Below are positions 1,034 to 63,744 of a stretch of 64,000 bases of DNA, piece after piece; positions within the stretch are counted from its first letter, which is position 1, and every line of letters starts with the position of its first letter. This stretch comes from Oryzias latipes (taxonomy: Eukaryota > Chordata > Actinopteri > Beloniformes > Adrianichthyidae), in assembly GCF_002234675.1 (NCBI RefSeq), contig NC_019867.2, positions 6,251,561 through 6,315,560 on the forward strand. Reading direction: 5' to 3'. The notes under the pieces were generated by a model. That model did not search any database and was not told the origin of the DNA. It saw only the letters and a program-made list of their open reading frames with translations. The translations under genes and the position numbers were made by a program.

Positions 1034-6065
<5,032 letters not shown>

Positions 6066-6561
6066 CGTGATCCTGTAAAGTCCAACTTCAACAAAAACAA
6101 ACTGTGGATGATTTTTCAATTTGGAACAGAAAGATTTCTCGGGTTATGATCCGAATCTTATTCACGGTGAGTACAACTCGACAAACCCACTCTGACCTTT
6201 ACCCTATATAGCATGCTTCGTTTACTTCCAACTCACAGTTAGATTCGCCAAACGAAATTAAAATTTTCTTTTACATTTTTAACATAAATAACAAACAAAT
6301 ATACTAAAATTGGTGCATTATTGACCCAGTGGCTAAATTAGAAAACACATGTATTAATTTTAATTGTGTTGTTAAATTTTATGCGATATAGAAATGCTCG
6401 AAAGTGCGAGTCCCGGAAGTAGACGATTTTCCTTGATACGTAATTTCTTTGCGACGCGTGCGCCGTATCCCTTGAAAGGGACAGTCGATGCGTTTTTTAT
6501 GCTTTTCTGTTATTTTTTACCCAGCGTTGATCTCTAAATTAATAAAACACGAAGAGCAGAC
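6066..6561. promoter_or_regulatory. Probable bidirectional promoter, acaa2 / mrpl40
   Basis: The two start codons are 496 bp apart on opposite strands, and both genes encode mitochondrial proteins. An ETS-type core, CCGGAAGT, lies at 6413-6420, and CpG dinucleotides cluster at about 6400-6480, upstream of mrpl40. No TATA box is evident there. Shared regulation is inferred from the layout only. Confidence 0.55.
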
Positions 6562-7738
6562 ATGTCTTTGGCATTGTCGCGCTGTTTGTGGAGGGTTTTT
6601 TCCCGGCAGACTGTCCCGTCACGGTGAGTTTGATCAAAGACTGTCAAGGTTGTGCAAAAACACTAAACAGTTCAGTTTTTTGCAGCTGTTCGTTAGTTTC
6701 CCATGACGGTAACCAGACTACACAGTCTGATGTGTACTGTTTTTTTTTCTTTTCAGTGTGATTTTCGGGGAAAATCCACATGCTGTGAGGGGTCCCTTGG
6801 TTGTTCCTGTGATGGAGCTGAAGACGTCAGCCCCCCTGAGGTACCATCTACATCTTCACTCTTTTTAAATGATGAGGCATGCTCATGCTGTTGTGGGCCA
6901 GGAAATCATTGGCTATAACCTACCAAGACTCAGTCAGTTAGTTACTATGATTTAGATTTATGAGAAACTTTTTGTTGCAAGTTCAGGTACGTGAAGTTAT
7001 TGTTTTTGTCTATACTTTTATCATACCTTCACTGTTTCTTCATGTTACCTAAGAGCTGAGCCAAAAAAGAAAAAAAAAGTGGATCCACGGCGGGAGCAGA
7101 TGATGAGGGAGCGGCTGAGGAAGAAGCTGAAAAAGCTGGAGAAGGTTCCACCTGAGCTCATTCCCATAGAGGACTTCATCACTCCCATCAAATGCTTGGA
7201 TGAAACAAGGTAGAGGTTGTTGTTTATGAGTATTTATGACCTTTCATTATTTAACTTGTTTTGGTTGAGTCCCCTTCCACATAAACTGATTCTGTTTCCC
7301 ATCTAACTAAAGGAAACGTGCTGCTCCAGATCTGTCATTTGAAGAGAGTGAGAGCCGAGCGCTGCTGCTGAAGGACTGGAGTCGATACAAACAGGTAATC
7401 ATGTAACCTTAAAATAAAAATTGTTATCCATCCTGTATTAGCTTGTATATATGTCTTTGGTCTTATCTATATTCTGAAAAATACAATACTTGTCTTTTTT
7501 CTGACATCAGCAACAACACAAGGCTGAAGTAGAGGCTATTGAACTGGCTTTGGAGGCGCAGAGAGAGGCGCTGGAGGAGCTAAAGCTGGAGTCTGAGGAG
7601 CTGTACCAATCGGCTCTGAAGCCAGACCCACATCTGTTTCCCTTCACCCGCGAGGGTCCCTCATACACGCCCCCAATACCAAATTATGACGCCCCGGATG
7701 GAAAGTATAATGACATCACAAAGGTGTACACACAGTGA
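6562..7738 (+). CDS. mrpl40: Mitochondrial ribosomal protein L40
   Basis: Component of the large subunit of the mitochondrial ribosome. Five coding exons splice in phase: 6562-6623, 6757-6840, 7054-7209, 7313-7394, 7511-7738. The product is 203 residues; human MRPL40 has 206. The N-terminus ([15 protein letters not shown]...) is basic and hydrophobic as expected of a mitochondrial presequence. The lysine-rich stretch [12 protein letters not shown], the block [16 protein letters not shown], and the C-terminal motifs YTPPIPNY and [12 protein letters not shown] identify the family. The human protein has a few more residues after the final VYTQ. A polyadenylation signal AATAAA lies at 7941-7946. 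In human 22q11 its neighbour is C22orf39, as here. Confidence 0.96.
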
Positions 7739-8438
7739 TGGACAGTGGAGCGCTGTTTGTGCAACTCCAGAGGACTGCTTTCACATGTTTGAGCTTCACT
7801 TGAGTCAAGATGAAGCATGTTTGAGAGCCTGCAGGAGAGATGAGCCTTTCTGCCTTCATGTATGTTCAGTTATGAAGGCCAAAGTCACATATCATCAATG
7901 CAAACTGTGGATCCATTTTTTTCTATTTTAAGAAACTTAAAATAAAAAATGTCTACGGTTTCATTTTTAACTGTAATTTTCTTTTGTGTTAAACTGAATG
8001 TTTTAGTATGAATTGAACACAGGACTGTAATTACAGCCCTAGAAACAACATTTACCAAGATTGAAGAGTGTTAACATGATGGTGGTTACAAAATATGTGT
8101 TTCTGCTTCTTTCCAGACAAAACCTTTTGTTTTCTGTAAGGGTAAAAATTAAACTTCATGAAAAAAAAATGAAAATAAAACAAATCTATTGTTCACTTTA
8201 ATAAGTATTTTCAATCCAATGATATTAAAATCAAACCATTTCTCCCCCAATCATTCTATTAAAGCAGTGATTCTGTATTTTTCAGAAAAATCCTGTTGAA
8301 TTTGTCGGTCTGCTTCACAAAACATTATTCTCTTTATGGTCGACTAACATTTTCCCCCTAATCAACAGTGAGTGTTTGCAGCTCCACTACATCTCGTGTC
8401 CATTAAAAATTAAATACACAAAAGTCAAAGAGGTCCTT
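7739..8438. other. Convergent intergenic gap, mrpl40 and C22orf39-like 3' ends
   Basis: Contains the mrpl40 3' UTR with its signal at 7941-7946, then AT-rich sequence up to the stop codon of the convergent gene. I see no further gene or recognisable repeat. Confidence 0.6.
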
Positions 8439-9636
8439 TTAGGAGTCTTCTGTGTTGTCCTGGTTCAGAGGCAAATTCCAGTCTTTTGGAGGCTCACACC
8501 TCAGTTCCCACACTGGGTCAAAGTTTTTTTGCTCTGCCACCCGCTTTCTTTCACTTCTCTGCAATGCTTCCTAAAATAAGTTTAAAACAAATCTTGTAAT
8601 TATGCAATACGAATTTTAATAGGCAATATTCGTGTCCTAAAGTTGTACCTTAGTCTCTGTGCTTCTAGATTTTTCCCACTCTCTGCAATTATAGTAGTCC
8701 TCTTTCCACTGATGGCATGATGGGGTGGTGCCGTAAGTGTAATAATGGTGGAAGCGATTCACAAGACTTTTGCAGTGCCAGAACTCACTCCAGTAGGTGT
8801 CACATGCTCTCGGTGGCTGTGCGGGAAAAAGGCAAGAAATAAATACCAAAAGCAAAATTAGATAACCACATTAAATCTGACCTGAAACAGTTAAATGCAG
8901 GAACTCCTGCATTAATGTTTTGTGTGGATGTAGGAACTTGTATTTATGTAATGTAATGGTATTTAAATATACAGTTGAAACCAGGGGTTTACACACACAG
9001 GATGACCAAATTAAGGTCGGATTTCACACATGTGTTCTTGGTCTTTTTTTCTCCATTCATGGTACGACAAATCAATGCAACTTTCTATAGTGTTTTTACA
9101 CATTGCAGTATAAAAAAATTCCATGGAGGGAGAAATCACATTATAAGGGAGACATTTAGATATGTTGATCACACATCTTAAAATTATATAGCTGTGGGTT
9201 TTAGATTTATCAAACTCCTTTAAGAAAAATGTGATAACTCAAGAAATCAAATTAAAAAAACAGATTTTTCGTGCGCCCCCTTGTGGTTGTTCAATAAATT
9301 GAACCTCACATTTCTATATTGTATTTAGGTTAAAAAAATGTATTTTACCACTTTTCCTTACAATTAACGATAAATATATCCCAGTTTATGCTCCATGGTT
9401 GTGGTAAATATGAAATATGTCACATTTACGTTATTTGTTACGTGCTAACGATTTTATTTAGCTAAACACAGAGCTAGCCGCCTTCAAACTACAAACAAAT
9501 GTAACAATCATCAACTTTAGATCAATTAGAAAAAAGATTCGAAAGCTAAAGTGGAAAACTGTCACACTAAATTTAACATTTTGTATTCTTTTTTTAGTGA
9601 AATTACCCTCCATGTTGTTACCACGGGTCGGTCCAT
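8439..9636 (-). CDS. C22orf39-like small cysteine-rich protein (UPF0545)
   Basis: Ortholog of human C22orf39 by sequence and by position beside mrpl40. Two exons are clear. The middle one ends in coding sequence at 8649 and starts near 8820; the last is 8439-8570. They read PPRACDTYWSEFWHCKS, then HHYYTYG, CHQWKEDYYNCREWEK and, at the end, DWNLPLNQDNTEDS. Human has the matching PPRPCEAYRAEWKLC, HHYYVHG, CEQWQRDLASCRDWEE and DWHLPLP. The paired Cys spacing resembles twin-cysteine proteins, which is inference. The first exon is uncertain. A 15-base exon at 9622-9636 (MDRPV) with a good donor fits the phase, and ETS-like CCGGAAGT lies just upstream near 9667. Molecular function is poorly known. 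Confidence 0.75.
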
Positions 9637-15446: not shown

Positions 15447-29941
<14,495 letters not shown>

Positions 29942-30400: not shown

Positions 30401-30711
30401 ATGGTACATACATGCGTTGCTGTTGGCTGCCACAACAGAAAAACTCCAGATTCACGCCTGTCGTTTTACCGATTTCCGCGGGATAAAGACAGAAAACAAC
30501 GATGGATTGCGGCAGTCAAACGGGCAGGGTGGCAGTCCACAGATGCCAGCAGACTCTGCAGTGAACATTTTGTGTCAGGTGGGTCTACAGTCGCACATTT
30601 TATTTGTCTCAAAAGTGATTCATTTAAAAAAAAAAATCGTATTAATCCTAACCTTTTCATATTTTTCTGACGGGCAAGTTATTCAAGTTATAAACTGACT
30701 TATAAAAATAA

Positions 30712-31060: not shown

Positions 31061-32014
31061 CTCATTAAAAATCTTTCAATTATCTTTCTGTATTAAATTT
31101 AGTGAGCAGCAATGCTTGATAGTTTTTCTCAGAGACTTCTGGGAAATTCTAGATTACTGTACTGGGTTTTGGATACATTTGGACAGCTCTTAAAAAAAAA
31201 AAAGGTCAAAAGCTCTGTATTCCTGTAGTGCAATAAGTGGTGAGTAGTGAATGAATTCAAACACAACCTGTGAGAACTGGCCCGAGTAAATGTGACGTTA
31301 CCCATAAAAAAATGGTGTACTTCCAGCTTCAACCAAATGAAGTCAATTCATTCTCCATTCTTTTGCAATATAGATGTTGCCATGTTGGAGCCAGAAATTG
31401 TCAGTAAGCATAAGTATGCAATTTAGATAACAATATTTCACTTCCGACAACAAAATGGGATGCGGATTTGAGCATCAGCACAGATGAAAGTTTTTGGTCA
31501 GAACTTTGTCTAAACACCTTTAAAATGACAAAAAGTCCAAATCTGCAGCTAATCCATTTCAAAACTCTTCACAGAATTTACTACACTGGACAGAGGATGT
31601 TCAAGATGGGTCTCAGTAACTCAGACATTTGTCAGCACTGTGACAGTAATCTACCCGACAATTACATGCATGCACTATGGTTCTGCACGCCTGTCCAGGC
31701 TCTCTGGCGGCAGGTATGTGCCGATCTATCAGTCTGGCTTAAGGTTTCAATCACAGCTTCACCGTCACTTTGTGTGCTTGGTGACATGAGTGCCATCGAT
31801 GTAGAAGGAGGATTAGGCTCTATCATTTTCATAACTCTTTGCATTGCTAAAAAAACTATTTTAATAAATTGGAAAAGCAAAAAAAATATAAATATAAGTC
31901 AACACATAAATCTGCTGCTTGATCATATCAGCTTGGAAAAAATGTCAGCCCAAAGTTCAAGTAACTTCGAAAGAATTCGGTCTCTCTGGTCTCCCATAGC
32001 TAACTCCGTGACTT

Positions 32015-34130
32015 AGGGGGTGGGGGGGGCCTGGTCGTCGCTGCTCCTTGCCCTTCTGCCGTGGGCCGGGGTGGGGGTCGGGGCCTCCGGTGCCTGGCGG
32101 GGGTTGTTGGGGGCTCCGTTGGTCGGGGGATCGGGTCCGGCGCCTGGGTGGGGCGGGCTGGGGCGCTGCGTGGTCCTTTGGGCTTGGGTGTGGGGGTGCG
32201 TGGTGGGGGGGTGGGGTGGTGGTCTGGCCTGGCTTGGGGGGGTGGTCCCTTTGCCTGTGCTGGGGGGGGTTGGCGGGGGGCGCTGCTCGGGGGGGGGGGG
32301 GGGGGCAGCGGCGCTGGATGGGCTTCCCATCTACGCCTGGGGCTGGGATCGGCCCTTCCCTGGCTCTGGGGCGGGACGGGACAACCCTCTTGGGGCCCCC
32401 GGTCGCTCTGGGTGTCCTCCGCTTCGGCTGCGGGGTCTTGGGGGGGGTGGGGTGGGGGGTCTTGTCGGCCCTGACCTGTGGGGGGGCATTCTGGGGGAGG
32501 GGGGGGGGGTCCACTATTGGTACGGGGCAGGGGGGGTTGACGGGTCGGGGTCTCGGCTGAGGCCATCGGCGGTTTCCCCGGCCGGTTGGCTGCCTTGGTC
32601 CCGTCGAGGCCTGACCAGAGCTCTTCTAGGGCCGGCGTTTGGGGGTGGGGGCCTGGGCTTGCTCCGGGGGGGGCCGGCGCTTTCTGGCTCCTCTCTCTCT
32701 GTGTGGGGGGGGTGGTGCTGGGCCTGGGGTGTCGGCGCCTCCGGGGGTGGGGCCCCTGGGCTGGGTGGGCCTGGCCCCCTTGCTGGGGGGGGGGGCGGGG
32801 GACAGCTGTTTGACCACCGGGGGACAGTCTATCAGTTGTCCCCAACTTACCCCCTTCCTCATATAACCTCATAATAGGGTGAGGGGGTGGGGGGCTTAGC
32901 CTGCGATGAGCCTTGGGGGGGGGGTTTACTAGGCAGTGGCCCCCCTCCTATGGTTGCCGTATGGAGTGGGCCCCCCCTCTTTCGGTTTTACTTGCACCTT
33001 AGACATGTAGGGCCCTTGGTAGGGGGCGTGCTTGGACATCACTGCCAGCAAGCAGCGGATGTCCTCCTAGCACCCTACCCGCCAATTTTAACCGCACCTT
33101 AGACATTTAGGGCCCCTTGGTGGGGAGGGTGAGGGGACGTCACTGTGAGTAATCAGGAGATGTCCCCTTAGCGCCCTACCCGCCAATTTTAACTGCACCC
33201 CCCTTAGTACACACACTCCTCCCCCCTCAATATATACATCCCAACATAAACACACACACATGCACACACACACCATCTCAAACACACATACACGCACACA
33301 CATTTTGCAAGGAAGGTGGGACCTGGGTCCATCTGTCCCCTGCCTCTTCCCTGGTGGGGGGTGCGGGCCCCTTTGCAACGGCGGCCGTGTCCCCGGGGTG
33401 CCGGCTTCCTGGGCCCGGCGGTGCTCTCTCCGCGCGGTGGGGGAGTTCACATTACATCTGAGCCGGGGGTGTCTGGTCCCTGGGGGGTGGGTTCTGGTCC
33501 TTGCTCCTGAGTGCTGGGCCCCGCCAAATTTCCAACTGTGGCCGAGCCTGGTCGGGCCATATTTATAACACCCCTTGTGGGCCCTCTTTTTTTCCCCGGG
33601 GTTCCCCCCTCCTGGGCGGGGGCGGCGGGCCCCCTGCCTCGCTCCTCCCTGGACCAACCGTGGGCCGGGCGGATGGCTGCCTGGAGTGCGGAGCGGGTCT
33701 CCCTTGGGGGGTCCTGGCTCGTACCTGGGGTTGGGGCGGGGGGATGCCCGGAACTCCTGGGTGGTGGTGGGGTGCTCGTTTGGGGCTGTGGGCGTCCTTC
33801 TCCGGTGGGGCTCTGCGTTGGGTTCTCCCGGCGCGGCGGGGGGGCTGCTCTCCTGGTTGGGCTGGGGCGGCGCTCTCTTTCCCTCCGTGCTTCCCTGGCC
33901 TCTGGCTCTGGGGGCCTTGCGGCGGCCCTGCTGGCCCTGGCCTGGGTGGCGGGCTTGGTCGCCCGGGCGGCGGTTGTTCCCTGCCGGTTCCCGTGTGGCG
34001 TTGGGGGGATTCCGGCTGCCGCTGCTGCTGCGGTGGGGGTCTTGGGGTGGGGATGGCTGGGCACTCTCCCTCCTTCTTTTCACGTTCCACCATCCATTTT
34101 AGAAGAACATAAAACCTCACCTGAGCACTG
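32015..34130 (+). repeat. G-rich 3' UTR of the L1-type LINE
   Basis: Over 2 kb with dense runs of 4-14 G on the plus strand, very unlike the AT-rich host. Long frames on both strands (up to about 330 residues of Pro/Arg/Gly) result from the lack of A and T in stop codons. A (CA)n-like patch lies at 33243-33302. G-rich tracts are a known feature of L1 3' UTRs. Confidence 0.75.

Positions 34131-34669: not shown

Positions 34670-34674
<5 letters not shown>

Positions 34675-34740
<66 letters not shown>
34675..34740 (+). repeat. Poly(A) tract of the LINE
   Basis: About 66 uninterrupted A residues immediately before the right target-site duplication. Such length is expected only in a young insertion or is partly an assembly estimate. 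Confidence 0.95.
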
Positions 34741-34742
<2 letters not shown>

Positions 34743-36055
34743 GTCAGTAAGCAGTGATTGGTCCAAGTGGGTCTGAGTCAACACTTCTATGACAACCACT
34801 TTCACCAATCAGGAGTGAGCTTGTTGGAAGTCCACGCCCCTACCACTTAAAAGCTGGGTACACAAAATCCGTCAATCAAACAATTCGACCGTTTGACGTT
34901 CAAAGATTATGTTGAGGCATCCGATTGGTCCGTTTCATAGTTTCTCATTTACAGTTAATGACTCAGACCGACTCAGACCATTATTAGAAAAAAGCGACCG
35001 AATATACTTTAATATATTTGTTGAGGTTAATGGCACAAATCTGCAAATGTACCATGTGGAATCTGCAGTGTCCCAAATATGACAAAAAAGGAATATAAAC
35101 ACTTTCACTCTGGCTACCGCTCATTCCACAGGCGAAACAAGTATACCCCTTACAAACATTTCCTCAACATCTTTTTCCTTCTTTTCTGTTTCTTCAGGTA
35201 AACAGAGCAAAAACCAGTTTTCCCCCGATTATATTCCATCAGTGTTCAAGCATGCCCCATCTCTGGAAAAGAGAAAACATCTTGCCGAGCTTGCAAACTT
35301 TGAGCGGAGACGAGAACTAATAAGGAGCAAGCGACAAGAACAAGAGAAGAGGACGGATGTTGCAGCTGCTCTGCTTGAACTTCAAAGCATTCACCCAGTC
35401 AATTCTGCAACAACAGACGCTGTGTCCGATGCTCAAGACCAAAATCCAGTGGTTGAGCACCTACATCTGACAGTTGCAATCAGCAACCTGACTATGCAAT
35501 GGAATGCAACGCCCTCAGACTTGAAGTGAGCATGCTGAAAGGTCAAGTAGATGCATTATCTATTACAGAAAAGTCTTTTGAGACGGATGACAATATAGTT
35601 AGGTTTTATACGGGATTGCCAAATTTTAAAACACTGAACACAATTATTTGGGTGATTCACTCTCAAATCAAAGTAGAGAAACTGTCAAAGTTTCAGCAAC
35701 TAGTGCTAACACTCATGAAAATGCGGCTTAATTTGACAAATCAGGATTTGGCCCACAGGTTTGGTGTAGATGCATCTACAATTTCAAGAACATTCAGGCA
35801 CATAGTCGATTTATTGTACTTAACTCTGGTTCCCACTGCTGTTGTCTGGCCACATAGAGAGGCGCTGAGGAAGACTTTGCCCATGACTTTCATGACAACC
35901 TATCCAAAATGTGCTGCGATCACTGACTGTTTTGAAGTGCCGCTTGAGCAATCGAGTGACCAGGAGGCCACAGCACAGACACGCTCAGCGAACACTTTAA
36001 GAAATACAGTGAAATATCTCGTCGGAGTAGCGCCACACAGTGTCATCACCTTTAT

Positions 36056-36260
36056 CCCTTGTGCTATCCTAGGCACTTTAACATTGGGAGTTGGGTCATC
36101 TAGACCCACTAGACAGTGCTCTGAACCTTTTTTCTTCAATGATTTGTGATCTTCACTGGTGTCCATGGATTACATGAAATCTTTCCACCTTTATCCACCT
36201 TTGTCATGGTAGGGAGAACACATCAATGTAAGGGTGGGGTCATCTAAGATAGCACAAGGG
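36056..36260 (+). mobile_element. piggyBac-type MITE inside the transposase gene
   Basis: 205 bp with terminal inverted repeats cccttgtgctatcctag at the left and ctaagatagcacaaggg at the right, differing at one base. The right flank is TTAA (36261-36264); the left flank TTAT (36052-36055) differs from it by one base. A CCC...GGG end and TTAA target are piggyBac hallmarks. It has no coding capacity. Confidence 0.85.
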
Positions 36261-36676
36261 TTAAATCAAAGGGCTGGGGTGGCGGCGTTAGTGACCGTCA
36301 CCTAATGGAAAACACTGGTTTCCTTCAAAACATGCTGCCTGGCGATATCGTGTTCGCTGAGAGAGGCTTTAACATTCACGAGTCGGTTGTGGTCCATGGA
36401 GTCCAGTTGGAGCTTCCTGCTTTCACAGAAGAACAAATTCAGCTGAGTAGGAAAGATTTGGCAACAACTAAAGAAACCCAAAAGATGGCTTCAGTATGCA
36501 TGCATGTGGAAAGACTTACTGGAATGGTTCAACAGAAATACACTATTCTTAATGGCCCTGTAGAAACCGCACTCACTTATACAGATGCATCATGCGGTGC
36601 CATTACCTTGGATAAAATCGTACATTCTGCCTGTGCTTTGAGTAACTTGTGTAAATCCGTTGAGCCTATTGACTGA

Positions 36677-54598: not shown

Positions 54599-55847
54599 CA
54601 GATTCCTTGATTTAGAGTCTGTCCTTTATATCCTCCGCCTTGTTCTAAAGGTCATAGGGTTAAAAGAGCTTAGTGCCAGCTGTTTTGAGGGGAAGGAAAG
54701 GCCCAACATTAAGGAGCTATCAATGTTGGAAAGTGAAAGTGTCGGTGACAGAAACCCGCTATTGCACGTCAACTCATTTTGGTCTAAAGTTACCCAAAAT
54801 ACTCAGCTGGTCTATTCACCACTTTTTAAATTTTTTTTATTGCTTACTGAAAATCACAGGCTGGTGTGAACATATATAAAAGGAGAAAATGGCTTTAAAA
54901 CTAATTCAACGTATAATTAAAGAATATTTCTGCAGACATGAAAATGAAAGTTCATCTTGACTATAGATTCAAAGTACAATTTTTTTAACTCTAAAGCCTG
55001 AAGTGGATGCTTTTTTTCTCTGCAAATAACAAATCAATTCCGCTTTCTGAGCCCTGCTACTTTTAAATGATCTCATTGGATGTATACAATTAAAAATGTC
55101 TTGATAAAAATGCTCTTTTTTTCCTTCAAAGTGGATAAAACGGTTCTTGTTTCTCAGGCTGACTGCTTTTTTTTTTCTTCCCGCAGAAACAGCATCGATC
55201 AGTCGGTCAGTCAGCAGCAGGCAGCTCTCAGATTCTTCCTCTCGCTCATTCAAAGTTGTCCTTTTAGGAAGCAACCCTCTTAGTGTCACAGCACTCGAGT
55301 TCAGTGCCAGAAGGAGCACAAGAGCAGTCTGTCTCTAAAAGCATCACGCCCCACTGATAATGTTCAAACAGTCCAAGAAAACTACGCAGACAAACAGCTT
55401 TGATTTGAAAAAGAATAAAACGAAAATCTTGCAAAAAACAGTTTTGGAGCTGAGAAGAAACATACCAAAACAAAAAAGCTGTTGTTTACCCTGCACAGCT
55501 TTAAATTCAATTGAATTCAACTTTATTTATCTCACAGGGAGAAATTCACTCATCATAGCAGCTCAAAGAAAAAAGACAAGTGAATGTACATTTACAGCTC
55601 ACTAGATATTAGCTCAAATTACCAATTAAGTAATTAGGAGCAGAAATAATTGTACATGTGACATCACCCATGGAAAATGCTTTCCTTCCGGCTCCAGCAA
55701 AATGAAATCAATTCAGTCGCCATTTTTCTGCGATACAGGCAGAAAAATGCTGGAGCCAGAAGACAGTAATAGACCTTTTTCGCAAAAACCGGAAGTACGT
55801 CATCAACGTGTAAACCTAGTTCCGGTTTGTGCTTCGCTGGCGGAGGA

Positions 55848-57266
55848 ATGGCAGAGCCTAGAGTGTTTTCGAAGAGCCTGAGTTGTGTTCCGAAGTTCAC
55901 CAGCACCGATGTGATGAAGAGTGTGAAGATGCAATCGTCCACTAAAGGAAACAAATTGGACATGGGATATAAATTCGTCCACGAAGAGTTTATCCACCAT
56001 TACCAAGGTAAGCTTCAGCTAGCTTTAGCCATAGCCGCATCACCGGTAACTCTGTGTGTTTACGTCAACTGTAAATCCTGGTGTTATTAATTTGTAATAT
56101 AAGGCATCGCAGTGAATATGTTGTGTGTATGTTTAAGTGAAAAGGCATGAGATTAACATAACACCCAAAAATTTGGTGAAGCTGTAAATAAGAAATGTTA
56201 AGTTGCCCGTATGCGTGTTCATTTTGCTGCGGTTGCGGCACTTTCTTCACTTACTAGTATTATTTTTCTGAAAGTATGGTGAGCAGAAGTCCTCTTTTCC
56301 TGGACATGTCCTCTCTTTTGATACTTATATAATAAAATAACATTGAACATAGATGAAATGTAATTATATTTGCTTCATGTATGCAGCTCTGAACACCAAT
56401 TACTCTCGATGAAATATCTCACAAACTCACTTCACTCCTCTTTTTTACAAACTCAAATCTGGTCACCCTATTGACAGTTATAGTTTCATGTCATTCTGAA
56501 CATTGATGTAGTAACATAAGTATGTCCTAATTTTAACCTATATAATTTATTGTGTCTAGATATCACTGGACGCAGAAAGTGCCAACCTGAAAGCTTTCGT
56601 CTGCAGTTGTGTGGCTGCTAAAAGATTTTGCAATCACATAGTTGCCATCCTGTTCCAGACCGCACATTATTCACAGCTGGGTCTGCAGGCTGCTCCACCC
56701 CCCTGGCCTGCACGAGTGGCTTGCAAAGATGGCACAGGTGGGTTTGTGATCATATTGTCATTTTTTAAGAACGTATGTGTATCCATAACAACTCTAAATT
56801 ATTATAAAAACACCCCAAGTAGTTACTACAGACTTTAATTGCTTTCTGCCTTTTACTTATAAGGGAATCCATCCTGAACCGGTTAGTGAGCTGATGGTGC
56901 AAAAACCCAAAACAGTTGGCAGGGACGGTCAGAGGTCCACACTGTACAAGGCATACAGGTGATTAACTTTTTGTTGCTTTGTGAGCAAGTTAAGTTTTTT
57001 TTTTTTTAATCTTATGACTAACCAAATTATGGTTACAGCAGATATAATGAATTAAATTGAAATGTAGTTATGCACTTATGTCTAACTTTTGTGTGTTGTG
57101 TTTCTCTTGTGTAGGACCACAGCCAGATCCATATGATGGCATCTGGAAGCAGATTATGCCAGGTGCAGCCCCAACCTCTCATGGTTGTGTTGGATGGGTT
57201 TCTGAGATGGAATGAAAGAGAACTTGGATATATATTGTGGCAAATGCATGAATGCATACCTTAAAT
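55848..57266 (+). pseudogene. SWIM-finger (YqaJ-associated) gene of the ISL2EU element, partial
   Basis: Exon 1 (55848-56007) reads MAEPRVFSKSLSCVPKF...GYKFVHEEFIHHYQ and has a consensus donor. A second exon around 56560-56737 gives the SWIM motif CSCVAAKRFCNHIVAILF, with CxC...CxH ligands, then YSQLGLQA. A third (about 56865-56958) gives RSTLYKAYR, and a fourth from 57115 ends at a stop near 57266. No YqaJ nuclease core is visible, so the gene is incomplete. SWIM-YqaJ proteins accompany the transposase in ISL2EU elements; their role in transposition is not settled. Confidence 0.7.
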
Positions 57267-57564
57267 TACACTTATCTTGTCTTTAACAATCAGTTCAGCC
57301 TTCTGTCTTACTGTTGATCTGTAATGTTATTTTTTATTGTAAATGTTTGATGTTATTTGCATACCAAAAAATTAAACGAGGCACAATTTTGACCAAAATT
57401 GTTTTATTTGTTCATCTAATTTTTTTGTGTAGTCAGTCACATTTCAACAGAAAAATATTACGAATATAACAATTATATTTAATTAGATTTTAAGAATATG
57501 TGGAAACACTAAATTTTTCCATACTATTTGCACATTATACATTATTTACATACCAAACATTAAT

Positions 57565-58254
57565 TCACTCTTCAAAACAAAAAAGTCCATGATAATTTGC
57601 CAAAACACGGCGGTTAAGCCAGATCTGATTCACACTGCCCATCAGTGTGAGCGGCACAGAGAGTTCCTGATGTGAAAGGACTTTATCCTCATCACTCCAC
57701 CATAATTCTGAGGCGGGTGATGGCTGCGGTTTGTTCTGTTTCCTCCTTGCTGAATTGAGCTGAAAGCTTAAAAGGTGGAATGATGATCTTAGATCCAATG
57801 TCAGTTAGGAGGTCTTGAACGAGGAACTTTTGTCCGCCATGACATCGTCTCCTGGCTCCAGCAAAGGAACTTGGCTTCTAAGTCATGGATGTAATCCAAA
57901 GCCTCATCCAGAGCACCTGTGAAGATAAAGAAATTAAAAATCAGTCTTAATATATTAATGCTACCTTTCAACACAACACAGTAATCATGTTTTGAAAAGT
58001 ATGTTAAGTATTTAATTACAAATACATTTCATTTATTTTTGTTAAGGAAATTACAAAATGACAAAATGCTCAAAAGTGATTAAATACATGTAATTAAAAT
58101 AGGTGAGAGCATGAACATCTTTTATTATAAATATTAATTTGTTCAGGTAGAAATGCATGTATCCAATAACGGTACACATAGTTGACTAACGTTAACCAAA
58201 CACATTATGAACAACCTTACCTGCAGGTGGGTGTGTCACGTAGTCGTGATCCAT
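57565..58254 (-). pseudogene. DDE_Tnp_4 transposase remnant of the ISL2EU element
   Basis: The start exon is 58221-58254 (MDHDYVTHPPAG), spliced to an exon ending at 57916 (ALDEALDYIHDLEAKFLC). Then the sequence jumps directly to the C-terminal catalytic region: DDVMADK with the second Asp, DLLTDIGSKIIIPPF, and RLRIMVER with the final Glu. At least one frame change follows, and SVNQIWLNRRVLANYHG is in another frame. The helix-turn-helix and the first catalytic Asp region are absent, most simply by an internal deletion. It is on the opposite strand to the SWIM gene and converges with it. Confidence 0.7.
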
Positions 58255-58930
58255 CTTTACTGTCTTAGCTTAGCCACCATGTCGCTAGTATCTTCACAGC
58301 TTAGCTGCATAGCCTGACGTTTGAGGTTCTGTCATATTCTGACTCCCTTCTCAAAGGATCAGTAAAGTTGTTCCAAGGGAAAATACTCGGGGCAACACCA
58401 CTCTTCAGGCGACGAACGACGCAGCCGCACCACAATCCCGGAGCGAAGTTAGTAAGTGCCGGCAGCAGAGGGTGCTACCTGTGTTTACATTAAAACTATG
58501 CCCTTCATCTCTTCGGATCGCCTATATCCATTTGGGTTTCAGGTTTGGATCCACAGGAAAATAATGAAATGAAAGGTAAGGCTGTTTTTGGTTGGAAGAC
58601 GAACAGCCTGGAACGCAACAGAGACTGCAACTCTTCGACTCTGCCATTCTTCATATCTGCTGCTACGCTAACAGGAAGTTGTTTTACACGTCATTGACGT
58701 ATTTCCGGTCGAAAAATGCGGAAGTGTGAAAAAGGTCTATTGGCCTAAGTCGGTCTGAGTCAACGTTTCTATGGCAACAACTGTCACAGATCAGGAGTGA
58801 GCATGTTGGAAGTCCATACACCTTCCACTGAAAGCGAGTTCTGTCAAATCAAAAGTTTACTGTGCGGGCCAGCAGGCACCACATGCTTTTACTGAGGCAT
58901 CTGATTGGCCAGTTCATAGCTTGAATAACA

Positions 58931-59833: not shown

Positions 59834-60839
59834 TATAGACCGTATATGAGAACTGGACTGAGTGACCCCGCCCCCAGGCGTTCCCAGAAGTACCCGCTGG
59901 TTCCAAAAAGCCAAAATCCCATAGATTTCTCAAGAGAAACAAACAGCTATTACTCTGTCGTTATATTTATCAGAATACCTTTTCTTGCTCTAATACCTTT
60001 TTGGCATGTTCTTGCTAATCCAAATTCTTTTCACAATATATTTTTTGTAGTGCAAGTTATTCAAGTTATAAACTGGCCAATCAGATGCCCCAAAGTGGAC
60101 CCCCTGGCCCCCACGTTTTAACAGTATAAAATGACAGATTTTAGCTGAATCTGAATTCATTCCCTACCGTTCTGGTTCCTCCCTATAGCTCCAAATGTAG
60201 GGGTTAGGAAATGGCTCTTTTAAGGGGTAGCCGTGGCGACCTACGGCTGGGTATCCCTCTGCCGGTGGCGTGATCTGCGCCACGCTTGTGTCATGGAGGA
60301 GAAATTCTTCACGTGGCTGTGCTCTGATGCACAAACGTTTACATTTGGATGTAATTACAGACTTTTGGCTTTTGCGTGACTTTTCAAAGTGATCAAACTG
60401 ATGTAATGTATTTCCCGAGCGCTGGTAGCTACACGCTAACATAGATGGCTGGCGACTATTCGTGACTTCATCGATCGCTAGTAAGATCCGAATTTAAAGA
60501 CACTATTTTTTCATATGTCTCCGCTTGAAGGGCTAAATGTAGGGGTAGGGAAAAGCTGTAGAGGTAAGGAATGAAATTCGGATTCGGCCTTTGTGTGACC
60601 CACTTTGAATTGGCACTGATTTGACTCCCAGCAAGCACCTTTCTAAGTGGTTGGAGTGGTCACCATTTGACCGACTCGGACCAGTCACTCTTTACTGATG
60701 TCGTCTGGCTCCAACATGGCGGCGTCCGTGCTAAAAGATAATGGCAACTGAATTGATTTAATTTTGTTGGAGCTGGAAGTGAGCCATTTTCTATGGATGA
60801 CCTCAAACTCACTTCGTCCAGGTCTCTTATACAGTCAAT
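59834..60839. mobile_element. Copy A of a TIR repeat, about 1 kb, nearly complete
   Basis: The left end TATAGACCGTATATGAGAAC then TGGACTGAGTGA is the imperfect inverted counterpart of the right end near 60810-60839 (TCACTTCGTCCAGGTCTC then TTATACAG). The inner region contains GCCCCCAGGCG, CAAGTTATTCAAGTTATAAA, ACCGACTCGGACCAGTCACT and CTCCAACATGGCGGC. Copies B and C share these blocks, in reverse. No transposase frame is present. Confidence 0.65.
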
Positions 60840-63744
60840 GGTTTGAGGTCATGCAGCATCTGTAAAAATACTGTTTGGCCAACCAGACAGCGAGCAACAC
60901 ATCTGACCTTTTCCTAAAACTCCTCCTTGTCTTCTGCCAACCATCTTACCCAGGAAGCCTTGAAGGATTCCTCGGAGCTGTTGCTCTGATGCTGGGTCGG
61001 GAAAGAGGACAGACGGAATTAGACGAGAAGGAAAAATCAACAAAACCACTCCCCTCTCCTTTTTTTTGGCTCGGCGAAAACGCAAATGCCTGCTGTCATG
61101 TGACTCTTTAACATGCTAATCTGGCAGCATGTAATTGCAGAGGCACCAATGAAAATGCTGCACTAAAGGGCAATTGTTGACCTATTTATAGCATCTGCTA
61201 TTTATAGGGATGTTTGTGGAAGCTTGGCCGTGGGATCCAAACAAACTGACAAATATATATATATTTTTTTGTATATATTTTTTATATATACATATGAGAA
61301 AAAAGTTATCTTGAAATGTTTTTGGGCTCAGGACATAAATACATTTGTGCTGTTTTTGAGGATTACTACCTCATAATCCTGTGGGAATTTAGCAAGTCTT
61401 CCGCTCCAGTCTAATCTTTTCTATTTTGCTGTTTCATCACATCTCAAAGCAAAGTTGGACTTTGTGTAAATATGACAGGATGTTTTGGAAATTTGGAGAC
61501 CCAAAACACTAAAATCCAAGAAAAAAACAGAAAACAAAAACTGTTTCTGTGAAAAACATTTTATTTTTTATTTAAAAAGGATATTTAATAAAGCCGCAAA
61601 AAAGAAATTAATGAAAAAAATAGAGGCTTCACTGCTTGAACTATTGATCCTTATTTGTTTGATTTATTTATGCATAAACTAAAACATTTATGTACAACAA
61701 GGAAAATCTAACATAAAATTAAACGATGCAATGGTGCGTGACAGAAACCTGTCTGGGTTCTTTTTACATGGTCACACCCTAAAAAAAAAAAAAGCATTTT
61801 AAATAGAAAATAAAAGGAAGAAATTTAAAACACAAAGGTAAACAAATTAAATGGAAACAATTATCCTAGCTTAGTAAAAGCCGTTTCTATTTTATTACAC
61901 TTATTTTTGCACACATGACTTTACATTTTTCAATAACAATAATAATAATAATAATTTGATTTTACTTAATGCTTTTAAGCTAGTCAAATAATTAAAATAA
62001 TTTAACAGCTTTGTGCCACAATACCGGAAAGAAATTTGATTTAGTAAATTAAAGGAGGATAAAATATCTGACATTTTTTGGGAGCTATATGTTATTTAAA
62101 GAGAATGTTTATTGACAAATAAATCCAAGCATTTTAAAGCAGATTTCTCTGAGACTCTGGTTGACTGGTTCCACTTAGTGAAACCTGGTGTGAGAATGAA
62201 GGGAGACCCAGGATGTGAGCCGTTTCAGATATGTGAAACTAAACACACACAACCGGATTGTTGTCATTATCTGCATGTTTGGAGCATGGAAAAAAAAAAC
62301 ACACTTAGGTGGCCAAAAAACACAATAGACAAACTAACCAAACACCTGAGACATATGTCACAATAGAGAGGACTCCAGCATTGATGTAAATGGACTAATC
62401 TATGCTGGAATTCTAAACAAGTTACCTTCAGATTATTTGGGCTTTTGTCCCAAATCAAAATAAAGAAAAACAGACCAAAAAACATTGTCAGCATTTTGGA
62501 AGTTATATAAACAACCCCAAAGCTGCTTAAAGATGCTTGCTGTTACCGTGGGAACAAAATCTCGGAGGCACCAAAACAAGTTTTTCACCTCTCCAGGAAA
62601 TTGCAGGCTAAGGTGTGTTAGCCGAACAAAACAAAACAAAAAATCAGAGGAAAATCCACTATTTCAGTCACAATTTTACCCACAAATATGGAAAATTAGT
62701 TCAGCAAATTGAAACTATTTTTACAAAGCTGTTTTACCGACACTCAGGTTTAAGGCTACTTCAGTGAACTGCATGGGAATCATGTGTTTGAACCATTAAG
62801 TCAGGTGGTTTTATGAACAGAAATATTTTCCACGTGCCAAAAATCAGATCAAAAAGATTGCTTACACATTAAAACTTGATCGCAGAGGAGCAGCCCCTCA
62901 GGAGCTCCATCGGGGGGGCTCAAAATCTCAGTTTTTGTTTTCTACCCAACCCCCCGGGATGTCCCCGCTCTGCAGATGGTCCTCTTTCGGTCCCATCTGC
63001 AGCAGGAAGTGTGTGATAGGAACTGCAAAGCATTGGTGTCCTTTTTCAAACAAAACATAACAAAATTAAGTTTCTATGAAACAAAGTAGATGTCCATCGT
63101 TATGATCCCAACCCCCTTTCATTTCTGTTTAGTTCCTGTTGTTACAATCAATAATTAATGTGATTAAAGTCTAAAAGGCAAACTTTCTGAAAGACCTAAT
63201 GAGTATTTTAAATATTTTAATTGGGAATTATGCTTTTACTCTTCTTTGGGTTTAAAGACCCACAACTATGAAAATTGGTGTAATTAACATGTTCTTGTGG
63301 CATTTTTCTCATGATGACGGACATATATGAAGAAAATGAAGCTCAAAATTGCATCTCGGTGTTTTTGTTGTGACAAAAAACAATTGCTGCATGTTGAGAA
63401 ATGATGTGAAGGTGTTTGGTGTATGAAGTTTAATAAATCCGAAACAAAACAAACATATTTTTTTCTGATTCTAATCCAGCTTTTTACTGATAAACTGTGT
63501 CAATAAAATTGTTGTTTTCTCCATAAAGTGCCACAACATCTCTGATAAAAATGAGTTCAAAATGACTGACATAAAGATTAATAATGTACGTCATAATTAT
63601 TATGAATCTGTCACTACAGTTGCTTGTTTTATTAAGTCAAATTCACACATAAAACTTGACAACATGCATAAAAACATGAAAAATATGACGATGAAAAGTC
63701 AAAGGGAGCCAGGAGATAATGTAAATTATTTTCCTCACAACACA
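60840..63744. other. Terminal intergenic DNA with no gene
   Basis: AT-rich, with a TA-rich patch at 61254-61292 and (AAT)n at 61937-61957. One partial MITE copy begins at 63253. The frames at 60849-61111, 62112-62366 and elsewhere look random. Confidence 0.5.
63253..63400 (+). repeat. Partial copy of the AAAGACCCACTC MITE-like family
   Basis: Begins TAAAGACCCACAACTATGAA, then ACATGTTCTTGTGGCATTTT as in the other copies, and fades by about 63400. Confidence 0.6.

Follow-up and report, generated by a model that had tools for sequence, protein, structure and literature searches.

Sequence evidence for a young, non-autonomous ISL2EU family in medaka that probably moves in trans on the proteins of an intact partner lineage

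Results

A 64,000-nucleotide stretch of the genome of the medaka, Oryzias latipes (contig C9, positions 6251561 to 6315560; referred to below as the window), contains a transposon of the two-gene ISL2EU group in which both genes are disrupted. Sequence comparisons with 734 Mb of the genome in 25 contigs confirmed the ISL2EU assignment and placed the element in a high-copy, non-autonomous family of recent origin. The shared lesions and ends of its copies suggested that this family probably moves in trans on the proteins of a related, intact partner lineage, its own genes having been broken before it spread.

The element proper occupies positions 55771 to 58738 on the plus strand (2968 bp, with ends AGACCTTTTTC...GAAAAAGGTCT). 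It is bounded by an AT target-site duplication, present at 55769 to 55770, where it is preceded by an A, and again at 58739 to 58740, where it is followed by a T. An earlier note on this DNA, made from the sequence alone, had placed an ISL2EU transposon with matching terminal inverted repeats (TIRs) and a duplicated AT dinucleotide at 55769 to 58740, and these coordinates proved to be correct with the duplication counted in. The TIRs have the form expected of ISL2EU elements, with an 11-bp exact core (AGACCTTTTTC at 55771 to 55781 on the plus strand and its counterpart at 58728 to 58738 on the minus strand) and imperfect arms of ~90 bp. The terminal 14-mer AATAGACCTTTTTC, searched with zero mismatches, was detected in the window only at 55768 to 55781 (plus) and 58728 to 58741 (minus). 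Inverted alignment of the two arms over ~90 bp gave a score of 43, far above random expectation: among 19,856 inverted pairs drawn at random from the window, 2 reached it; the maximum in a smaller first sample of 2983 random inverted pairs was 51. The matching TIRs described in the earlier note were therefore borne out. Within the arms, the subterminal segment at 55788 to 55827 (plus) is 80% complementary to that at 58670 to 58709 (minus), and the words CCGGAA/TTCCGG and ACGTCA are present in both arms; a role for them as promoter elements or as sites for the transposase is conjecture.

Copies of the element in the medaka genome

In a whole-genome DNA search, the best 40 of 197 candidates were scored as full-length matches, and all 40 were fetched. 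At least 40 genome matches, the window copy included, had an identity of at least 99% and either spanned the query completely or fell short of it by a few bases at the ends; one additional piece was 94% identical. Of 41 loci parsed by exact end motifs, 39 were usable; those left out were L039, in which the right-end motif was inexact, and L041, the neighbor of L036, which had no 3-kb pair of ends. The 39 parsed copies differed from the majority sequence by 3 to 20 substitutions in 2979 bp (mean, 7.3), with pairwise differences of 0 to 0.54% among the first 20 copies, and identical copies were present on different contigs (L010, L011, and L012 as one set; L017 and L018 as another). The dinucleotides on the two sides of these copies were AT/AT in 36 cases and GT/GT, AC/AC, and TT/AT in 1 case each. 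The base before the target was A in 34 copies, T in 4, and C in 1, and the base after it was T in 25, A in 12, and G in 2, with a flank composition of 23 to 27% per base.

The main lesions of the window element were common to the family. A stop codon in the transposase gene was present in 39/39 parsed copies, and the exact junction of a deletion in the YqaJ gene was present in 37/39. When the exact 31-base sequence of this junction was searched genome-wide, 94 sites were detected, while a reversed control pattern gave 0. As these lesions are family-wide, the results indicated that the element moved after its genes had been broken. Lesions private to the window copy were a deletion of 3 bp, another of 7 bp (the latter within the DDE part), and 15 private columns in a comparison of the first 20 copies. 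The earlier note had stated that its ISL2EU assignment would fall if no other copies shared both ends or if the relatives belonged to another superfamily; instead, full-length relatives with both ends were abundant, their target sites were mostly AT/AT, and intact relatives encoded THAP, DDE_Tnp_4, and YqaJ domains.

An intact partner lineage

These intact relatives were detected in a protein search of the genome with a 53-amino-acid (aa) DDE peptide, in which 150 of 187 candidates were scored and 124 matches were returned. Only 5 of the 124 matches listed had a long open frame, which measured 369 aa in each case; these five shared a single score, and the next longest frame was 183 aa. The elements at the five loci (L042 to L046) are 5036 bp long, except for that in L045 (5046 bp). 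They share the terminal motifs of the window element, are flanked by AT on both sides in 5/5, and differ pairwise by 2 to 13 substitutions. Two proteins are open in 5/5 copies when read through predicted splice sites, one of 492 aa from five exons and one of 472 aa from two exons. The 492-aa protein combines a SWIM-like motif with a YqaJ domain (PF09588; E = 3e-16). Its YqaJ exon matched the exonuclease structure 3syy (E = 1.3e-9) with alignment of GASPDG and E-K stretches, which we take to be the nuclease active site. The 472-aa protein is a transposase with THAP (8.1e-19) and DDE_Tnp_4 (1.3e-38) domains, for which HTH_Tnp_4 gave an E value of 0.071 and 13.2 bits versus a cut-off of 27. No Myb domain was among the Pfam matches listed for the partner proteins. 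A word from the partner YqaJ core, searched genome-wide with up to 3 mismatches allowed, gave 5 exact and 4 near occurrences (1 to 2 mismatches) versus the 94 exact junctions of the gutted form.

Comparison of the window element with this lineage detected a match of 57/57 at the right end and 54/57 at the left end, where the first 24 bp are those of the partner, and an identity of 89.0% in the interior (2497/2805 ungapped positions). Four partner segments were missing from the window element in blastn alignments: 447 to 661, 1683 to 2456, 3138 to 3775, and 4019 to 4421. The last of these corresponds to an intron, and the other three remove coding parts of the two genes.

Disruption of the two genes in the window element

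The two genes point inward, and their start codons lie inside the inverted arms within a shared word, GAATGGCAGAG, at distances from the element ends of 77 bp for the plus gene (55848) and 91 bp for the minus gene (58647). The first exon of the plus-strand YqaJ/SWIM gene, at 55848 to 56007 (ATGGCAGAG...CAAG/GTAAG, with a putative splice site), is the same as that in the partner. The first deletion follows at 56200 to 56224 (blastn break at 430/454 of the element and 446/662 of the partner), and with it has gone a predicted 86-nucleotide (nt) second exon at partner positions 509 to 594. An exon with a SWIM-like motif is retained at 56560 to 56737 and matches CSCAAGKGFCNH of the partner; the motif itself, C-S-C-x6-C-N-H, lies at 56602 to 56637. 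The next (third retained) exon, GIHPEPVSELMVQKPK..., at 56864 to 56958 also matches the partner, and by the same comparison 57115 to 57211 is the start of the exon that encodes the YqaJ nuclease. At the deletion junction at 57211 to 57212, partner positions 1683 to 2456 are gone (774 bp), and with them the region of the YqaJ core that includes GASPDG and EVK. A consensus match to a possible poly(A) signal, ATTAAA, is present at 57371 to 57376 on the plus strand.

The SWIM-finger gene reported on the plus strand in the earlier note was thus supported in part. The CxCx6CxH motif is present, but Pfam SWIM gave no match at an E value of ≤10 in either the window exons or the 492-aa protein of the partner, and the resemblance consists of this motif only, fitted by eye to the SWIM consensus. 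Alignment with the intact relative upheld the view that this copy keeps the finger DNA and lacks the nuclease core. If exon 1 is joined directly to the retained exon that follows it, the finger DNA is read out of frame and a stop occurs inside the finger exon. Through these splice sites and without the 86-nt exon, therefore, the finger could not be made from the normal start.

The minus-strand gene begins with a THAP domain exon at 58331 to 58647, which contains a frameshift and the in-frame stop of the family at 58522 to 58524. This stop cuts the THAP domain after 41 codons. The domain was detected above the Pfam cut-off when one frame was read with X at stops (PF05485; E = 3.2e-11), and the E value was 7.6e-14 when two frames were joined with X; the joined sequence also matched the structure of THAP domain-containing protein 2 (2d8r; E = 3.3e-10). 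A predicted intron (GTAAGG...TTCACAG) at 57917 to 58220 has corresponding splice sites in the partner. The deletion junction at 57867 to 57868 marks the loss of partner positions 3138 to 3775 (638 bp), the middle of the transposase, which holds the HTH region and a DCTE motif presumed to supply the first catalytic D. The C-terminal half of the DDE_Tnp_4 transposase follows at 57565 to 57852 in frameshifted form and retains the region of the second D and the E, presumably catalytic. A possible poly(A) signal for this gene, AATAAA at 57403 to 57408, is a consensus match only. DDE_Tnp_4 was the sole Pfam match among the 10 raw frames of the element, with an E value of 0.17 as a single raw frame; two sequences joined with X gave E values of 0.16 and 3.1e-4, and all three scored below the Pfam cut-off.

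Alignment with the intact relative agreed with the description in the earlier note of a transposase whose ends are kept and whose middle is missing. The DDE piece that it had recognized on the minus strand stands, while the THAP domain had been overlooked. Its term "remnant" suits the genes but not the element, whose main lesions are common to a young family. The SWIM and DDE peptides of the element had no confirmed relative in the viral contigs searched.

Older copies and independent insertions

Five copies occupy two homologous sites in diverged repeats (L002, L014, and L021 at one; L019 and L022 at the other), with both orientations represented within each group. Divergence is 2.5 to 6.4% between the flanks, compared with 1 to 12 substitutions over ~2975 positions between the elements. 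Duplication of an occupied site would not by itself explain why the elements resemble each other more closely than the flanks do, or why they face in opposite directions, and these five copies are therefore most simply read as separate insertion events at two paralogous sites. For L003 and L038 and for L004 and L031, alignment coordinates indicated that the repeat was shared and the insertion position was not.

Three further elements were considered as possible intact relatives and rejected. The length of a 4318-bp element at L041 (positions 4529 to 8846) had suggested an autonomous partner, and it was found to be an older deleted copy, 94 to 96% identical, that is interrupted by a stretch resembling a long interspersed nuclear element (LINE) reverse transcriptase, recognized by eye without a profile search. 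This older copy directly abuts a young copy, with one AT shared between them. The elements at L047 and L048, which were 94% identical in the search with the 53-aa peptide, lack the same downstream segments as the window element, with breaks at partner positions 1682/2457, 3137/3776, and about 4014-4018/4421; their first break runs to partner position 629, compared with 662 in the window element. Both are ~90% identical to the window element. As copies so diverged lack the same downstream segments, the gutted form predates the recent burst.

The window element itself appears to be inserted in an older dispersed repeat, as its flanks match dispersed copies of such sequences in the window. The left flank matches repeat copies at 31286 to 31396 and 60740 to 60800, and the near right flank matches a copy at 34757 to 34851, with other repeats farther out (59948 to 60092 and elsewhere). 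When the flanks were joined at one AT, the alignments gave support for an empty site: a copy at 34740 to 35000 crossed the junction with a single AT, its left homology extending over only ~14 bases. A minus-strand copy at 60500 to 60840 was strongly homologous to the left flank; from the site rightward, its homology weakened and contained gaps. The repeat copy at 34759 to 34980 has inverted ends TGGTCCAAGTGGGTCTGAGTCA (86%). Beside it, at 34673 to 34740, is a pure run of 68 A residues that is possibly a retrotransposon tail.

Other elements in the window

A second DDE element with broken frames was detected at 35083 to 36676 on the plus strand (HTH_Tnp_4, E = 2.1e-21; DDE_Tnp_4, E = 7.7e-20), and no clear inverted ends were found near it. 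BLASTP gave no match between this element and the ISL2EU DDE piece; in a global alignment of the two, which was poor, 0 of 2000 shuffles reached the observed score. A THAP exon at 30401 to 30580 on the plus strand (E = 2.1e-15) is located ~5 kb upstream and may be the first exon of the second DDE element, split off by later insertions. Two plus-strand regions, at 19043 to 19972 and 31414 to 32016, contain pieces that probably belong to LINEs; the matches were to reverse transcriptase (RVT_1; E = 1e-16) and to zf-RVT, the latter short of the cut-off (E = 2e-4).

Discussion

These comparisons point to an ISL2EU family whose members probably depend on the proteins of another lineage. The ends and target choice of the element are those of a functional transposon, and internal deletions, a stop codon, and frameshifts broke both the transposase and the YqaJ/SWIM genes before the family spread. 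The two-gene lineage represented by the five ~5.04-kb copies probably supplies the 472-aa THAP and DDE transposase and perhaps also the 492-aa YqaJ protein; the partner proteins would bind the shared ends, excise the element, and insert it at an AT that is duplicated in the process. Since the gutted family did spread, a moving element need not make either protein.

Several observations weigh against this donor. Block by block, the identity of the partner with the window element is 81 to 90%, which makes it a cousin rather than a direct parent. The right-end match of 57/57 was equaled by 11 of 2749 interior 57-base windows, and the left end matched at only 54/57, so that conservation of the ends is support and not proof. 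The predicted donor site that follows one of the partner exons, GTTTGA, is unusual. The base at the left flank of the partner was T in four copies and G in one and never A, with a T following in 5/5, a preference unlike that of the window family (A before in 34/39 and T after in 25/39), which with five sites may be due to chance. Furthermore, the existence of older deleted copies with ~90% identity means that earlier bursts could have been served by another partner, now lost.

The limited block identity and the differing flanks would also suit a family mobilized by some other transposase, either from an ISL2EU lineage outside this assembly or from another PHIS element, with the 5-kb copies as bystanders. 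Diverged DDE relatives with frames of 118 to 183 aa and 75 to 77% identity, and the four near YqaJ-core sites, are candidates for such a source. Against this explanation, which we regard as unlikely, the ends of the partner are near identical to those of the family, and among the 124 matches listed only the five copies have an open frame longer than 183 aa. The window copy viewed alone, with its stops, frameshifts, missing segments, and private lesions, resembles a single decaying fossil, in which both genes of an autonomous ISL2EU insertion were partly lost through local mutation. For the main lesions this account is refuted, because near-identical copies at unrelated sites share the breakpoints, with the stop in 39/39 and the junction in 37/39 parsed copies and at 94 genome sites; as a whole it is highly improbable. 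Retention of THAP and SWIM-like segments, start codons, and most splice sites alongside loss of the catalytic cores could instead reflect a purpose for the retained pieces, such as repression of the autonomous partner by a THAP or SWIM fragment. Such a product is difficult to envisage when a stop 41 codons into the THAP domain, seen in every parsed copy, and a frameshift both interrupt that domain, and when loss of the 86-nt exon puts the joined exons in the wrong frame with a stop in the finger DNA, and we attach very little probability to it. Movement in trans on the proteins of the 5-kb lineage thus remains the reading that we favor.

In the portions available to us, Han et al. (2015; PMC4482050) describe ISL2EU as a group of the PHIS superfamily with an A(AT)T target, a THAP/HTH/DDE transposase, and a YqaJ second gene; TIRs of 6 to 259 bp usually begin with GG, the mean autonomous length is ~4840 bp, and the functions of the second open reading frames are given as unknown. 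The medaka elements resemble this description in the AT duplication and in the pairing of a THAP/DDE transposase gene with a YqaJ gene, and the partner, at 5036 to 5046 bp, is close to the mean length reported there. They differ in a TIR that begins with AG, which is not decisive because the source says "usually." Their flanks agree with an A(AT)T site in part: the window copy has both the A and the T, the 5' base is A in 34/39 family copies and never A in the partner (n = 5), and the 3' base is T in 25/39 and A in 12/39 family copies and T in 5/5 partner copies. For the HTH reported for the group, HTH_Tnp_4 was below the cut-off in the partner. A second report, in the text accessible to us, found ISL2EU to be present and expressed in medaka, with a THAP or HTH transposase and a YqaJ gene, as in the elements described here, and stated that published proof of ISL2EU activity did not exist at that time (PMC9179366). 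The SWIM-like motif is absent from the ISL2EU descriptions in these two articles, in whose available text "swim" has 0 occurrences (PMC4482050 and PMC9179366), and "non-autonomous" likewise has 0 occurrences in the main text of the second (PMC9179366) as available. Small ISL2EU contents are recorded for fish genomes in the accessible part of PMC4746887, and the parts of PMC12730594 and PMC11304231 at hand do not describe ISL2EU activity.

The AT duplication, the YqaJ second gene, and the lack of a listed Myb domain distinguish these elements from PIF/Harbinger, which has a TWA target and a Myb/SANT second gene. The Ds elements of the Ac/Ds system are internally deleted partners that keep their ends and outnumber the autonomous form. 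The window family is like Ds in its internal deletions, kept ends, and copy number above that of the autonomous form and unlike it in its ISL2EU ends, AT target, and two-gene partner. The kind of system is already known. No paper titled on this pair was among the matches listed for ISL2EU and medaka transposon activity in a literature search that did not cover Repbase, in which the family may already be named.

Whether these elements form a currently mobile vertebrate ISL2EU system is, in our judgment, evenly balanced. In such a system, a few intact elements would drive many gutted ones, the transposase and the YqaJ/SWIM nuclease would be trans-acting or dispensable, and insertions would be segregating. 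The complete and very recent ISL2EU pair in this genome, with five near-identical two-gene copies beside a family that kept its ends and lost the nuclease core and the transposase middle, offers natural material for study of the role of the YqaJ/SWIM protein and of ISL2EU activity.

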